DNA from: Armatimonadota bacterium
Lineage (GTDB): Bacteria > Armatimonadota > Fimbriimonadia > Fimbriimonadales > Fimbriimonadaceae
Direction of reading: 5' to 3'
DNA: 64,000 nucleotides
NCBI GenBank assembly: GCA_018268395.1
Contig: JAFDWQ010000005.1
Coordinates: forward strand, 62,001 to 126,000
Under the pieces are notes generated by a model. It made no database searches and had not been told where the DNA came from. It saw only the letters and a list, made by a program, of their open reading frames with translations. The translations under genes were made by a program, and so were the position numbers. Positions 37,852 through 43,308 of the stretch are shown here, piece by piece (position 1 is the first letter of the stretch; the number at the start of each line of letters is the position of its first letter).

Positions 37852-37871
37852 CTTGACTTTGTTACGGCCGT

Positions 37872-38870
37872 TCAGCCGTTGACGTATTCCATCCCCATCG
37901 GCGCGTAGCGGGCACCGGAGGTCTCGAAGCCGTCAAGAGCCTCGATATGGTGCGGGCTGAGCGTCACTTTCGTGGCTCCGACGTTGTCTTCAAGGTAGCG
38001 CACCCGTTTCGTCCCTGGGATCGGGACCATGTCCGGACCCTTCGCGAGCACCCACGCCAAGGCGACCTGGGCTGGAGTGCACAGAAGCTCGTCGGCGACG
38101 GCCTTGACTCGGGCGGCAAGGGCCGAGTTGCGTTCCAGGTTTTCAGGTTGGAACCGTGGAGACTGTCGTCGCCAGTCGTTCTCCTCCAGGTCTTCGGGTT
38201 TCGTGATCGTGCCCGTGAGGAACCCTCGGCCAAGAGGGGAATAGGGCACGAACGTAATGCCAAGTTCCTGGCATGTGGGAATGACGTCGGCTTCGAAGTC
38301 GCGGGTCCAGAGCGAATACTCCGATTGGACGGCTGCGATCGGGTGGACTTTGTGGGCCCTGCGGACCGTTTCCGCCGAAGCCTCGGAGAGGCCGAGGTGC
38401 CGGATCTTGCCTTCTTCCTTCAGGCGCACCATCTCGCCGACCGTCTCTTCGATCGGCACGCGCGGGTCGACACGGTGCTGGTAGTAGAGGTCGATCGCGT
38501 CGGTCCCTAGGCGAGAGAGGCTCAGTTCGGCGCACTTTCTGACGTAGGCGGGCGTCCCGTCCACGATCCAGCCTTTGTCCTGCTGGACGAGGTCCTGGTG
38601 GGAGGTCATCGAGCGGTCGTAGACGTTGCCGAACTTGGTCGCGAGGAAGACCCGGTCGCGGCGCCCCTTGAGCGATCCGGCAAGAAGCTTCTCGTTGTCG
38701 CCAGCGCCGTAGACGTCGGCCGTGTCCCAAAAGTCCACGCCGAGCTCGAGGGCACGGTCGAGCGTTCGGAGGGCTTCGTCTTTGTCCGCCGTCCCATAGG
38801 CCCAAGACATGCCCATGCATCCGAGCCCGAGGGCGCCGACGTTACGGTCTGCGATCTTTCTGTTTTCCAT
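37872..38870 (-). CDS. Aldo/keto reductase (AKR13/YajO-like)
   Basis: A 332-residue TIM-barrel reductase. The catalytic tetrad regions are visible: Asp and Tyr in FWDTADVYGAGDNEKLL, Lys in VFLATKFG, His in LYYQHRVDP. NADPH-binding segments near the C-terminus include VPIPGTKRVRYLEDNVGA. It reduces carbonyl compounds; the substrate is unknown. It is the last gene before the AT-rich island. Confidence 0.9.
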   Translation of the reverse strand: MENRKIADRNVGALGLGCMGMSWAYGTADKDEALRTLDRALELGVDFWDTADVYGAGDNEKLLAGSLKGRRDRVFLATKFGNVYDRSMTSHQDLVQQDKGWIVDGTPAYVRKCAELSLSRLGTDAIDLYYQHRVDPRVPIEETVGEMVRLKEEGKIRHLGLSEASAETVRRAHKVHPIAAVQSEYSLWTRDFEADVIPTCQELGITFVPYSPLGRGFLTGTITKPEDLEENDWRRQSPRFQPENLERNSALAARVKAVADELLCTPAQVALAWVLAKGPDMVPIPGTKRVRYLEDNVGATKVTLSPHHIEALDGFETSGARYAPMGMEYVNG

Positions 38871-38904
38871 TCGAGTGGGTTTCCTGTGTAGCGGAGTCGG
38901 TCGG

Positions 38905-38919
38905 GGCGGCGAAGCCGCC
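38905..38919 (-). terminator. Small hairpin directly after the first small membrane gene
   Basis: GGCGGC-GAA-GCCGCC, one base beyond the TAG stop of the 123-residue gene in its sense direction. It replaces the repeat terminus found at the equivalent spot after the duplicate gene at 41386. No T run follows, so termination is only possible. Confidence 0.35.
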
Positions 38920-38920
38920 G

Positions 38921-39292
38921 CTAGTCTAAGAGTTTCCTTTCAGGAACAGTGGTGAGAATAAGGAGAGAAATCTCAAGGCCCGCAAGTCCGGCAATCAAAT
39001 TGATCCAAATGCTGCCAAACTGCAAAGTCAAAGACGCACCAATTGTTGCAAGAAGACAGACAGTTGCTATCCCCGCCGAAAGGGAGATCCGTTTGAAGTA
39101 CCGCGATGTGACAAGGATACATGTCAATGCCACCCAACCAACAAGTAATTGCGCGAGGTGTGACAGGTTAGTGCCTGTGCGGCTAATTTCGTAAATCGCA
39201 AGCAAGACGATTATAATGCACAGGACGGCGGTCAGGCCTGATACCCATCCTGAGCTTCGACGTAATTCTCTTTGCGGCTGGTTGGTCTTCAT
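38921..39292 (-). CDS. Small membrane protein, 123 residues (copy 1)
   Basis: Three or four hydrophobic segments (residues about 18-36, 48-62, 70-90, 93-112) with a basic N-terminus (MKTNQPQRELRRSSGW). No family recognised. A second copy lies at 41386-41757 with 9 of 123 residues different, five of them within the first 11 residues. The duplicated block is 407 bp in both copies (38921-39327 here), covering the gene and 35 bases before its ATG. Base composition is lower in GC than the flanks. Confidence 0.7.
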   Translation of the reverse strand: MKTNQPQRELRRSSGWVSGLTAVLCIIIVLLAIYEISRTGTNLSHLAQLLVGWVALTCILVTSRYFKRISLSAGIATVCLLATIGASLTLQFGSIWINLIAGLAGLEISLLILTTVPERKLLD

Positions 39293-39399
39293 ATGAGTGA
39301 AGTATTGGGGATGGCTTCCTTTCAGTCAAAGCCGCACGTACTTACAAGTACTCCTAACTGAATCGTCGCGTAAAGTGCAGCTTCTATCACAACTGTTTA

Positions 39400-39587
39400 G
39401 CTGCCTCCAGACTCCGCAAGGCACCTCAAGCCGCACGTCGCCGAACCTAGTCTGGAGGCTTCGTCCGCGCCGTCTCACAACGCGCGGTTTCACGGGCCGG
39501 TCTGATGCAGCGCCCTTGCCCCGGTCTGCAACGGTCTTCGGGCGGGTGGAATGAAGCGTGGACACCGTTGCCAGACCGAGCCACCCC
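39400..39587. repeat. 188-bp hairpin-rich repeat, copy 1
   Basis: Matches 42759-42946 in the same orientation and length with about a dozen mismatches by eye. It contains an inverted repeat GCCTCCAGACT (39403-39413) / AGTCTGGAGGC (39449-39459). A second pair is CGGTCTGCAACGGT (39522-39535) and ACCGTTGCCAGACCG (39564-39578), the latter pair with one bulged base. It fills most of the 330-base gap between two small membrane genes. Frames across it change too many residues between copies to look coding. Confidence 0.75.
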
Positions 39588-39622
39588 CAGAAAGACGTCA
39601 CCGCGGGTCGATTCATCATTCG

Positions 39623-39904
39623 TCATTGGCGGTCATGAGGTTTTTCGGCTAAACCTTCTTTTTGTCCTTGCATCTTTTTAGATAATAGCGAGCTAACATA
39701 TAATACCAAGCTGGCTGCGATCAAGAGCGGTACGACATTCCGATGTGTAGCTACTGACCCGCAAGCAACTATCGAGGCTACAGCCAAGAGCAGAAAAAGA
39801 ACGAGCATCCATTTATTGTTCTGCAGTATTGACAGATGCCAAGCCAATCCAACAAGGATAGATAATACCCAAAGAGGAAAATACAGCGGCACGATCCGGA
39901 ACAT
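39623..39904 (-). CDS. Small membrane protein, 93 residues
   Basis: Hydrophobic segments at about residues 5-25, 32-50 and 58-75, then a charged tail (SKKMQGQKEGLAEKPHDRQ). AT-rich codons unlike the chromosomal neighbours. TATAGC 7 bases before the ATG may be a -10 element. The 3' flank leads into the 188-bp repeat; the 5' flank ends at an inverted-repeat element (40021). No family recognised. Confidence 0.55.
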   Translation of the reverse strand: MFRIVPLYFPLWVLSILVGLAWHLSILQNNKWMLVLFLLLAVASIVACGSVATHRNVVPLLIAASLVLYVSSLLSKKMQGQKEGLAEKPHDRQ

Positions 39905-40020
39905 GAATAACGCTATAGGGAATGCTGCCGAAACAAAAATGGCAGACTACACTATGAGTGTTAATAGTTTGCTCATGGCCCAACACCCTCAGATATTGCT
40001 TGTAGGTCTATAAAGAATTC

Positions 40021-40305
40021 GGCAGTTGGCCCGACCGATGGTGACTTCGCGCAGGGTGGCCGGGCTGAGAGGGGATGGCTCGCGTCCGTTTGCAGCCCAG
40101 TTCCGAAGGAACTTACCTCCGTCGCTGGTCGTGCGCGGAAGGGTCTCGCGGCCATGGGTAAGGTTCTACCCTGAGAGCGCCCTGCTCCAAGCGGTTTTGT
40201 CCTTCGGACCTGTCTGTCGCGGCCAATCGAGAAGATTGCCCATGAAAGGACTCGCGACAAGCAGGCCACCCCGGATGCCGTCACCCTCGGTCCTGCCACC
40301 CGCCG
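40021..40305. mobile_element. MITE-like element, copy a (285 bp)
   Basis: The left end reads GGCAGTTGGCCCGACCGATG then GTGAC. The right end (40280-40305) is its inverted counterpart, GTCACCCTCGGTC then CTGCCACCCGCCG. Internal palindromes GTTCCGAAGGAAC (40100-40112) and GTCCTTCGGAC (40199-40209) recur in the other copies. It occupies the 472-base space between two small genes. No coding potential of its own is convincing. Confidence 0.7.
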
Positions 40306-40376
40306 CCGCGGTGCCAAGTACATGGCCACACCCAATCGCAAGCGGGCAAGAGCGGTGGCGGTCATGACCTCTGGTG

Positions 40377-40664
40377 TTAGTCACTTTTCGAAACCTTGAC
40401 TGAACAAGACAAGAAATACAACGAACCGAGTACGGTTAGTCCCAGGATAAGAGGAGCATAGGGGCCATCAGCTCCCAGTTTTCTGACTGGTTTCCTCGGG
40501 GCCGCTGAAGCAGCTTTCCTTGCTTGGTCATAGAACGGCATGTTCAACCGTATTGCCACAAGGAAGTATACAGAAACGGCTAGCACTGTAAGGCAAATGA
40601 TCGTTACAGGAAAGTGAAAGAAGATCGTCCTTCCAAAGAGTGTTGTTTTCCGGATCATATTCAT
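40377..40664 (-). CDS. Small membrane protein, 95 residues
   Basis: Two membrane segments (about residues 13-38 and 70-87) separated by a basic Pro/Ala loop (KAASAAPRKPVRKLGADG). It starts 8 bases after the stop of the 139-residue gene, with the repeat terminus between them supplying AAGGGTGA as a possible ribosome site. The two are therefore probably co-transcribed and may function as a pair. A longer frame beginning inside the repeat (40691) is rejected. No family recognised. Confidence 0.6.
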   Translation of the reverse strand: MNMIRKTTLFGRTIFFHFPVTIICLTVLAVSVYFLVAIRLNMPFYDQARKAASAAPRKPVRKLGADGPYAPLILGLTVLGSLYFLSCSVKVSKSD

Positions 40665-40671
40665 ACGGCGG

Positions 40672-40693
40672 GTCACCCTTGGTCTGGCCACCG
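40672..40693. repeat. Solitary element terminus between the 95- and 139-residue genes
   Basis: GTCACCCTTGGTC then TGGCCACCGT on the plus strand. It matches the right end of the ~285-bp elements but no partner end is adjacent. It contains the TGA stop (40673-40675) of the upstream gene. Confidence 0.6.
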
Positions 40694-41092
40694 TATGAAG
40701 TCGTTCAGCAGCTCCACAGTCGTGACCTTAAAAGGTGGCAGCACTTCGACGTAGGCCCACAGGGCTTCGCAATCCCGCTGGCTGCGCCCTTCAATGTGCT
40801 TCAGGATCGATTCCGTTAGGGACGCTTCCGTCCAATCAGCCGACTCGGCGTGACCCACGTTTCCAGGGTTGAGCAACGCGCCGGACAACTGGTGCACCTG
40901 TTCGTTTACCAAGTAGTACGGGGAGTCGTACACTTGGGCGACGCGACATGCGACTTGTCGTTCCCCCTCGTGATCTTCCATCAACCATCCTCGGACCACC
41001 ACCGTCAGGGCGTGGATCAACTTCAGTCGCAAGGAAAGGAGTTCGCTGGAGCTTAATTGCCGAAGTCGCCGAAAGTCACTCGAGGTCGTCAT
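40673..41092 (-). CDS. 139-residue soluble helical protein, immunity-like in style
   Basis: Unlike its island neighbours this protein has no membrane segment. It begins with basic helices (DFRRLRQLSSSELLSLRLKLIHALTVVVRGW) and an acidic middle. The last residues, IRWPDQG, and the stop codon are encoded by the repeat terminus at 40672-40693. CAGGAG lies 5 bases before the ATG. I recognise no family; its small size, acidic middle and pairing with a membrane protein resemble immunity proteins, but that is weak. Confidence 0.6.
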   Translation of the reverse strand: MTTSSDFRRLRQLSSSELLSLRLKLIHALTVVVRGWLMEDHEGERQVACRVAQVYDSPYYLVNEQVHQLSGALLNPGNVGHAESADWTEASLTESILKHIEGRSQRDCEALWAYVEVLPPFKVTTVELLNDFIRWPDQG

Positions 41093-41115
41093 ACGGACTC
41101 CTGTACGTCTTAAAC

Positions 41116-41385
41116 GGCGGGTGGGCAGACCAATTGTGAATGCCCGGAGTATTGCACGGGTGAAACGGGCCGCAACGCGTCCTCATTGTACAACCGCCCC
41201 CGCCCGTTTGCACCCATGTCCGAAGGCTCGCAGCGACGTGGCCATCTGGGAGAGCCGATGTCCCACCTTGGAGAGCACACGCGTTCGAACAGCATGTTCC
41301 TTCGGAACCAGGACAAGGCCGCACGATCATCGCCCTTGTCCTGGCCACCCAAGCGAGAGGTCGCCCTTGGTCTTGCCACCCGCCG
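41116..41385. mobile_element. MITE-like element, copy c (270 bp)
   Basis: The left end is GGCGGGTGGGCAGACCAATT then GTGAA. The right end (41360-41385) is GTCGCCCTTGGTC then TTGCCACCCGCCG. The internal palindrome GTTCCTTCGGAAC (41296-41308) and CCGTTTGCACCCATGTCCGAAGG align with copies a and b in the same orientation, though this is the most diverged copy. The stop codon of the duplicated membrane gene begins at the very next base. Confidence 0.7.
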
Positions 41386-41757
41386 CTAGTCTAAGAGTTT
41401 CCTTTCAGGAACAGTTGTGAGAATAAGGAGAGAAATCTTAAGGCCCGCAAGTCCGGCAATCAAATTGATCCAAATGCTACCAAACTGCAAAGTCAAAGAC
41501 ACACCAATTGTTGCAAGAAGACAGACAGTTGCTATCCCCGCCGAAAGGGAGATCCGTTTGAAGTACCGCGATGTGACAAGGATACATGTCAATGCCACCC
41601 AACCAACAAGTAATTGCGTGAGGTGTGACAGGTTAGTGCCTGTGCGGCTAATTTCGTAAATCGCAAGCAGGACGATTATAGTGCACAGGACGGCGGTCAG
41701 GCCTGATACCCATCCTGAGCTTCGACTCAATTCCTTTTGGGAGTGGCTAGTTTTCAT
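41386..41757 (-). CDS. Small membrane protein, 123 residues (copy 2)
   Basis: Same length and fold as the gene at 38921-39292, with 114 of 123 residues identical. Differences cluster in the N-terminal cytoplasmic-looking segment (MKTSHSQKELSRSSGW). The 407-bp block 41386-41792 fits exactly between the right end of copy c and the left end of copy b of the inverted-repeat element, with no spare bases. A TACACT element lies 8 bases before the ATG; the first copy has TACTTC there. Function unknown. Confidence 0.7.
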   Translation of the reverse strand: MKTSHSQKELSRSSGWVSGLTAVLCTIIVLLAIYEISRTGTNLSHLTQLLVGWVALTCILVTSRYFKRISLSAGIATVCLLATIGVSLTLQFGSIWINLIAGLAGLKISLLILTTVPERKLLD

Positions 41758-41765
41758 ATGAGTGA

Positions 41766-41771
41766 AGTGTA
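41766..41771 (-). promoter_or_regulatory. -10 element TACACT for the second membrane gene copy
   Basis: TACACT on the minus strand, 8 bases before the ATG at 41757. Confidence 0.45.
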
Positions 41772-41792
41772 GGGAATGGCTTCTTTTCAATC

Positions 41793-42075
41793 GGCGGGTG
41801 GCCCGACCGAAGGTGCGTTCACGATAGGTGGCCGGACTGAAAGGAGATGGCTTGTGCCCGTCGGCAACCCTGTTCCGAAGGAACTTACCTCCGTCGCTGG
41901 ATCTGCGCGTAAGGGTGTCACGGCCACGGGACGGTTCTACCCTGAGAGGGCCCTGCTCGAGGCAGATTTGTCCTTCGGACATGCCTGTCGCGGCCAATCG
42001 AGAAGATGGCCACTAACAATCTCGCGACTAGCCGGCCACCCCGGATGCCGTCACCCTCGGTCCTGCCACCTGCCG
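41793..42075. mobile_element. MITE-like element, copy b (283 bp)
   Basis: The left end is GGCGGGTGGCCCGACCGAAG then GTGCG. The right end (42050-42075) is GTCACCCTCGGTC then CTGCCACCTGCCG. Internal palindromes lie at 41872-41884 and 41970-41980, as in copy a. It is the best-matched partner of copy a and runs in the same orientation. Left flank ends TC and right flank begins TC, a possible 2-bp duplication, not repeated at the other copies. Confidence 0.7.
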
Positions 42076-42133
42076 TCGAGCGAGGAACGCCCTACGTCAG
42101 GAAATGACTTTTCACCACGGAATCTATTGGGAG

Positions 42134-42159
42134 GTCACCCTCGGTCAGGCCACCCGCCG
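42134..42159. repeat. Solitary element terminus at the end of the 115-residue gene
   Basis: GTCACCCTCGGTC then AGGCCACCCGCCG, a full right-end terminus 58 bases after copy b. On the minus strand it encodes the last residues (SGGWPDRG) and the TGA stop of the 115-residue gene. Confidence 0.65.
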
Positions 42160-42482
42160 CTAGCTGCGCGCCTTCGCCTAACGATGTCGTCGAATGCCTC
42201 GCATACGGCCACCACCCAAACGCTGGGAAGCGCGAGAAGGTACGGCTCAAAGTTACAAAAGCAGAAGGCCATACTCGAGCCAAGCCCGACGAGGCAGGCC
42301 GCTAGGCGGAGGCCGTGCGATGAAAGGGCTAGGAGACCGCTGACCACCATGACTCCGCCAAGCCATTGTAGTGCGGTGGCGTGGGAACGTTCGACGTAAA
42401 CGGCTACGATGGACAGGATGATGCATCCGCAGACAATCGCGACAGTCATGTACCTACGTATTAGAGTCGACAGTGATGTCAC
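42135..42482 (-). CDS. Small membrane protein, 115 residues
   Basis: Three hydrophobic segments (about residues 13-28, 39-55 and 58-95), then an Arg-rich end (DDIVRRRRAASGGWPDRG) whose last eight residues come from the repeat terminus. The GTG start at 42482 follows TATCCT by 16 bases with GAGGAAA in the short leader; ATG at 42449 is the alternative. No family recognised. Confidence 0.55.
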   Translation of the reverse strand: MTSLSTLIRRYMTVAIVCGCIILSIVAVYVERSHATALQWLGGVMVVSGLLALSSHGLRLAACLVGLGSSMAFCFCNFEPYLLALPSVWVVAVCEAFDDIVRRRRAASGGWPDRG

Positions 42483-42556
42483 TGCAAGCTTTCCTCATAG
42501 GATATGGCCATTAACGCTCCGGCAACTGCGCACGTACTGATGAGGGTAGATGTTAC

Positions 42557-42582
42557 GGCTGGGTGGCCTGACCGTGGGTGAC
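42557..42582. repeat. Solitary left-type element terminus
   Basis: GGCTGGGTGGCC then TGACCGTGGGTGAC, left-end orientation, upstream of the 115-residue gene. With a degenerate right end at 42986-43005 (GTCACCTTCGGTC then ATGCCGC) it could frame a ~449-bp composite that holds the second 188-bp repeat. Confidence 0.5.
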
Positions 42583-42758
42583 CTCCCGATGGGTGGCACG
42601 ATGACGGGCCGCGCCTTCGGCGACCGACCGTTCCCGTCTGACCGGCGGCCCTTCGTCGTGTCCGGGACGGATCCTCAAGTACGCTCGGAGGGTGCTGAAG
42701 GGTGCTCCGAAGCGACGGGTCTTCAACGACCCTGGCCATGCGCACGAGCTTACCTTTG

Positions 42759-42946
42759 GCTGCCTCCAGACTACGCACGTTACCTCAGACCGCACGTCGC
42801 CGAACCTAGTCTGGAGGCTTCGTCTGCACCATCTCACAACGCGCCGTTTCACGGGCCAGTCTGATGCAGCGCCCTTGCCCCGGTCTGCAACGGTCTTCGG
42901 GCGGGTGGAATGAAGCGTGGACACCGTTGCCAGACCGGGCCACCCC
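42759..42946. repeat. 188-bp hairpin-rich repeat, copy 2
   Basis: Second copy of the repeat at 39400-39587, same length and orientation. The arms GCCTCCAGACT (42762-42772) / AGTCTGGAGGC (42808-42818) and CGGTCTGCAACGGT (42881-42894) / ACCGTTGCCAGACCG (42923-42937) are unchanged. About half of the mismatches fall in the loop of the first hairpin. Confidence 0.75.
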
Positions 42947-43005
42947 GTCCAACAATCTCGCGACTAGCCGGCCACCCCGGATGCCGTCACCTTCGGTCAT
43001 GCCGC

Positions 43006-43260
43006 AGCTGACCTCTGGCTACCCCAGTCTCGGTACGTGTGCCGGCCGAGCAGCTCCTTGTTACGCTAGCGCAGCAACTAGGCACCCACCGATCCCCACC
43101 GTCGGCACACGGCTGAACCTCTTTGCAGGCCAGGACACGCTCGGGGGAAAAGTCCGCTCTTCACTGACCTATCAGCAGAACCTGTAGACGTCCTCTTCTA
43201 AAACGTAGACGCAAGCCTAGACGCGACATGAATTCTCCGCCTGGAAACCCGTCAAGGGCC
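43006..43260. other. Non-coding stretch before the dcw promoter
   Basis: No gene, strong hairpin or element terminus is visible. It is the tail of the 959-base gap between the last island gene and mraZ; the upstream part holds the repeats and the downstream part the mraZ promoter. Confidence 0.5.
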
Positions 43261-43273
43261 CGAAGGAGGGAAG

Positions 43274-43308
43274 AAAGTGGTGAAACGTGGGGATTTCTGA
43301 TGTACAGT
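43274..43308 (+). promoter_or_regulatory. Likely MraZ boxes and promoter of the dcw operon
   Basis: Two GTGG cores 10 bases apart (43277-43280 in AAAGTGGTG and 43287-43290 in AACGTGGGG) match the tandem AAAGTGK-type repeats that MraZ binds. TGAAAC (43281-43286) and TACAGT (43303-43308), 16 bases apart, form a plausible -35/-10 pair overlapping the boxes. This predicts autorepression by MraZ. The leader to mraZ is then about 130 bases. Confidence 0.55.

Follow-up and report, generated by a model that had tools for sequence, protein, structure and literature searches.

MITE/REP-like elements lying at the 3' ends of genes very probably donate C-terminal tails and stop codons to the genes that they adjoin. 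In the window (the whole stretch of 64,000 nucleotides analysed here) the sequence of the repeat terminus itself encodes the last residues and the stop codon of two small ORFs; relatives of other tailed proteins that are free of the repeat are also free of the tail; and termini are enriched at the ORF 3' ends of this genome. The mechanism is ordinary and well documented by natural controls, which provide before-and-after cases of a repeat rewriting protein C-termini. They also carry a warning for annotation: where a short orphan protein lies in such an island, its last residues may come from the repeat and not be native.

The terminus forms either end of a palindromic, MITE/REP-like element, which is dispersed and mostly measures 270–300 bp. 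The element's two ends are inverted copies, which start C-G-R-CGGGTGGC-NN-GACC-RWR-GGTGACC and which, when read inward from either side, give in one frame GGC GGG TGG CCN GAC CNN GGG TGA. At up to three mismatches, the terminus pattern GGGTGGCNNGACCRWRGGTGACC has seven matches in the window, where 0.04 are expected from shuffles, and 38 in the whole genome (3.72 Mb in 15 contigs), where the reversed control pattern has none; the genome's termini are clustered in islands, which also hold a second repeat about 190 nt long. Three full elements lie in the window: at 40021–40304, 3' of a 94-residue ORF; at 41116–41384, on the 3' side of the second copy of a 123-residue ORF and the 5' side of the 139-residue ORF discussed below; and at 41793–42074, 5' of that second copy. 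All three are part of an alignment of nine elements, each full or almost so; of the nine elements whose length was measured (all from this genome, eight of them common to both sets), eight are shorter than 300 bp and the range is 269–376 bp.

The element resembles a MITE in that the terminal repeats are inverted (the ends pair among the nine aligned elements), the measured lengths stay below the limit of about 600 bp, and the copies are many and dispersed, as the 38 termini show. By their length the elements are probably too short to code for a transposase. What is missing is the target-site duplication, which was found at none of 14 full elements from two genomes; the summed length of abutting direct repeats at these elements is 3, against 8.8 by shuffling. 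The element is thus MITE-like but departs from MITEs in its lack of a target duplication. No autonomous transposon with the element's ends was seen in the fetched loci, and Pfam Transposase_20 had no match in four genomes, among them a related one of another genus (G053). A REP consists of one short hairpin, tens of nucleotides in size; the present elements, at their measured lengths and with branched folds, are not of this form.

The island of the window contains six small codirectional ORFs with a GC content of 44–60%, compared to 64% in the rest of the window, most of them followed by a repeat. Two of these end inside solo termini, one about 22 nt and the other about 35 nt long, that come without an element body. 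The 139-residue ORF (40673–41092, minus strand) ends ATA CGG TGG CCA GAC CAA GGG TGA, or IRWPDQG followed by the stop, within a 23-nt match to the terminus pattern at 40671–40693 (minus strand) with one mismatch; its last five codons and TGA belong to the repeat. The 115-residue ORF (42135–42482, minus strand) ends GGC GGG TGG CCT GAC CGA GGG TGA, or GGWPDRG followed by the stop, within a 23-nt match at 42133–42155 with no mismatch, and here the last seven codons and TGA belong to the solo terminus (42124–42158, minus strand). The first-pass annotation had ascribed both tails and both TGA stops to the repeat terminus, and the codons indeed lie inside the pattern matches; the repeat-encoded part is confined to these last five to seven residues and the stop. 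The ORFs are presumably translated. The 115-residue ORF is flanked by two outward-facing termini (42124–42590), the one on its 5' side (42558–42590, plus strand) being 93% complementary over 30 nt to the one at its 3' end; the whole resembles a small inverted-repeat unit with the gene as its interior.

The duplicated 123-residue ORF offers a neutral case, in which the protein end is identical with and without a terminus. It had been described as having its TAG stop directly abutting the terminus, which is true for copy 2 (41386–41757, minus strand), where CGGCGGGTGGC comes directly after TAG and the terminus adds no residue. Copy 1 (38921–39292, minus strand) has the same ERKLLD-TAG end and no terminus, its stop being followed by CGGCGG and a different hairpin, CGGCGGCTTCGCCGCC. 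The block common to both copies extends as far as the element termini of copy 2. The sequence after the stop of copy 1 (38900–38920) reads CGGCGG-CTTCG-CCGCC; it may be a terminator hairpin, or a scar left where an element was deleted. The array further includes two ORFs resembling small membrane proteins, of 94 residues (40377–40661, minus strand; no Pfam, PHROGs or PADLOC match) and of 93 residues (39623–39904, minus strand; a weak DUF5325 match below cut-off). None of the small ORFs had a match above cut-off in Pfam, PHROGs or PADLOC, and Rfam gave no match on the repeat island.

The simplest objection to a donated tail is that WPD(R/Q)G is native protein sequence and its match to the repeat coincidental. 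All that speaks for this is that the 139- and 115-residue proteins have no homologues by which to judge their ends: the former matched only the window itself among 85 genomes of the family, 291 genomes of the phylum, genome_contigs, plasmids and viral contigs, and the latter only the window itself among the 85 family genomes and the viral contigs; both are orphans. Against it stand the seven terminus matches of the window where 0.04 are expected, and the fact that two other tailed proteins do have relatives, of which those compared lack the tail. We regard this objection as highly improbable.

The first of these two proteins is an ankyrin/kelch protein by Pfam (contig C5, 143010–144840; L040:9011–10840), which ends VEV and continues with GGWPDLGDLQMGGGWPDHA; its tail, TAVEV GGWPDLGDLQMG GGWPDHA before the stop, corresponds to two termini in a row. 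The protein has matches in 60 of the 85 family genomes, and among the 14 homologues from other genomes for which the fetched locus covers the kelch part, none has a WPD tail. In ten of these the alignment reaches residues 585–590 and the stop follows after a further 0–8 residues; for the remaining four, the alignment broke off before that point or ran across a stop. The second protein, P1 (L044, stop at 913), is PEP-CTERM-like, a label given by eye and without such a match in Pfam; it ends RRKKHVQQASQRPFDPSLVEHDGWPDQG, including HDGWPDQG, directly before the stop. Its paralogue on the same contig, P2, ends CRRSKR followed by a stop, about 23 residues earlier. The DNA of the two genes remains alignable for about 50 bp past the TAA of P2 and breaks exactly where the terminus of P1 starts; P1 has therefore lost its native stop, and the TGA of the terminus has taken over. 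Both genes bear out what had been anticipated for the small proteins, that homologues free of the repeat should be free of the tail, and the comparisons support the terminus, rather than native sequence, as the supplier of both tail and stop.

The favored sequence of events is accordingly a short one, in which an element, or an end broken off from one, would come to sit over or beside the 3' end of a gene; the native stop would be removed, displaced, mutated or lost; and translation would run on into the terminus, adding (G)GWPD(R/Q/H)G and halting at the terminus TGA. The element would have arrived by insertion. Candidate empty sites are one-sided only: P2 is without a terminus at the point where P1 breaks, and the island is absent from a genome of the same genus. 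In both element-free partners, 123-residue copy 1 and P2, a hairpin stands at the break. Insertion into post-stop hairpins was considered as a general rule and rejected, as inverted repeats spanning the flanks are absent at the 14 full elements (66 against a null of 67.1).

That termini land at gene 3' ends, as had been claimed from the small ORFs, is borne out in the wider genome. For the 40 termini in the fetched loci, compared with random positions nearby in 300 draws, ORFs of at least 150 residues that point inward and end 0–100 nt before the terminus are found at 11, where 2.9 are expected at random and none of the 300 draws reached as high; ORF 5' ends in the same setting are found at 1 of 40, against 2.8 at random. 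For ORFs of at least 100 residues whose stop falls 1–30 nt inside the terminus, the count is 6 of 40 against 1.6, a value reached in 2 of the 300 draws. The ORFs in these tests are mechanical and some termini share one ORF, so that the figures are indicative. They were used because calling genes by codon models proved unreliable: a first model was rejected for calling a long antisense frame opposite an rpsB-like gene (identified by eye), and a second for missing the low-GC ORFs of the island. Of the 50 termini examined, the majority contain no end of a long ORF. The 3' positions presumably persist because they are tolerated.

The further claim of a fixed frame does not hold. A lipoprotein-like ORF of 340 residues (L053:5358–6380; no Pfam match) runs into a terminus in another frame and ends inside it with ACG ACG GGT GGC AAG ACT TAA, giving TTGGKT and a TAA stop; and 123-residue copy 2, as seen above, gains no residue at all. 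A frame of 811–904 residues ending RVA before a stop at L040:5341 had been a candidate for a further other-frame case and was dropped, being the antisense frame opposite the rpsB-like gene. That GGWPD.G is the favored frame follows in part from the terminus itself, which carries a stop in that frame; the second frame (RVA) is closed only if the variable bases end in T, and the third is usually open. Fixed orientation, in turn, carries little information: since the two element ends are inverted copies, the same sequence is read inward from either side.

A bias towards 3' ends would also be expected of a functional structure, a terminator or a REP-like brake on translation, that is kept at these positions by selection and donates stops as a by-product. 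The three elements tested do fold better than shuffles (z -2.7 for 40021–40304, -3.6 for 41793–42074, and -5.5 for another), and ribosomes are reported to stall at REPs that lie 15 nt or less from a stop codon (PMC12306157). In the consensus fold, however, only 7 of 52 pairs are changed on both sides and the covariation term does not favor the fold, for which reason covariation was discarded as proof of a functional RNA; the element is near-absent from relatives; and the related elements of G053 show no 3' preference. Selection for such a structure is thus an unlikely origin of the pattern.

Another reading takes the elements for integron-like recombination sites, so that a small gene with its 3' element would be a mobile cassette and a stop inside the site would be normal. 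The array looks the part: its six ORFs are small, low in GC and codirectional, none matches a family above cut-off, most are followed by a repeat and one is duplicated; there is no target-site duplication; the block that the 123-residue copies share is bounded by the element termini of copy 2; and the same 3' bias applies. However, the integron integrase TIGR02249 has no match over the curated cut-off in the one genome searched, where it gave only partial matches to other tyrosine recombinases. The core sites of attC are RYYYAAC and GTTRRRY; the element ends CGRCGGGTGGC, which is not an attC core. The second copies of both duplicated genes come without the element, so that gene and element are not visibly moving as one unit, and the other islands of the genome are not clean arrays. 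By the two features tested, integrase and attC ends, the element is not an integron, and integron-like cassettes strike us as improbable. We give just as little credence to a variant in which the element is the recombination site of a gene-cassette system without IntI, its built-in stop ending any captured ORF as attC does, although the small orphan genes between inverted termini, the duplicated unit bounded by termini and the absence of target duplication would all fit; if it were true, the interest of these elements would be much higher. Integron gene cassettes resemble the array in that small orphan genes point in one direction and each is followed by a palindromic repeat able to carry the stop.

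For the donation of tails by dispersed elements at gene 3' ends, precedents are found in other bacteria. In Coxiella burnetii, QMITE1 and QMITE2 are dispersed elements with inverted repeats; they reach from a few to tens of bases into the 3' ends of many genes, whose C-termini they alter, and EnhC of one strain gains 33 residues, its stop following immediately (PMC5896051). By description they resemble the present element in being inverted-repeat elements at gene 3' ends that change C-termini, and differ in that QMITE2 is flanked by direct repeats of 7–9 bp, none of which were found here. In Erwinia, the normal stop of a conserved gene, the amidase ECA3499, was lost to the ERIC-type repeat RU-1 and the extended protein ends inside the repeat (PMC2759123); a review of such repeats mentions further cases (PMC2229807). 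The ERIC, IRU and RU-1 repeats of enterobacteria are likewise small, palindromic, mobile and found at the 3' end of a gene, but RU-1 is about 127 bp long with 7-bp terminal inverted repeats and a target-site duplication, whereas the element described here has roughly double that length, long terminal repeats and no target duplication found. REPs share the palindromic form, and some of them sit within 15–20 nt of a stop (PMC12306157), but they are short and downstream of the stop, whereas the present termini contain it. The effect is thus known already from mobile repeats of other bacteria, with a repeat family here that appears to be its own; among the titles and opening lines of abstracts on Armatimonad or Fimbriimonas repeats, none describes such a family.

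Outside this genome, the element is matched in only two others of the 85 family genomes, and partially in both. The terminus pattern had no match in viral_contigs; a single exact match, the only one in genome_contigs, is seen in Streptomyces fildesensis (L183:7332–7357). One of the two partially matching genomes, G053, has a related family of its own, about 250 bp long, with ends CGGCGGGTGGCCGGGTTGA and 25 matches; one ORF of this genome ends FGGYPG and a stop inside the terminus of a related element. The neighbors of these elements are enriched on both sides, for 3' ends (10 of 29 against 4.4) as well as for 5' ends (9 of 29 against 3.8), so that the wider family does not in general favor 3' ends. 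The island itself forms, with an aldo/keto-reductase-like gene, a segment at 37862–43300 directly upstream of mraZ; in the same-genus genome G034, about 230 bp between conserved flanks stand in place of these 5.4 kb or so. By this comparison, the island would be a gain here or a loss in the relative.

Several observations concern the surroundings of the elements. The second repeat of the islands, R1 (about 190 nt), has two copies in the window, at 39396–39587 and 42755–42946, both on the plus strand, and occurs also in the loci L040, L044, L045, L057 and L058; it starts CTGCCTCCAGACT, with an inverted AGTCTGGAGGC. Its halves are also found alone, and in one case an element terminus breaks into the repeat at ACAACGCGCG. 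The start of contig C14 and the end of contig C6 share one R1 sequence, both ending inside it. On contig C4, a tyrosine recombinase (Phage_integrase; L052:6630–7829) lies between two inverted termini about 5 kb apart. In G053, two contig edges (L146:9242–9360 and L147:1–119) carry an identical repeat that starts with the 11-bp terminus CGGCGGGTGGC and has different outer flanks; a peptide from this repeat has its best, though weak, matches in the IS621 and ISCro4 transposases, at their C-termini (E 0.28 and 0.44), and the repeat is perhaps an IS110-type element inserting into the terminus.
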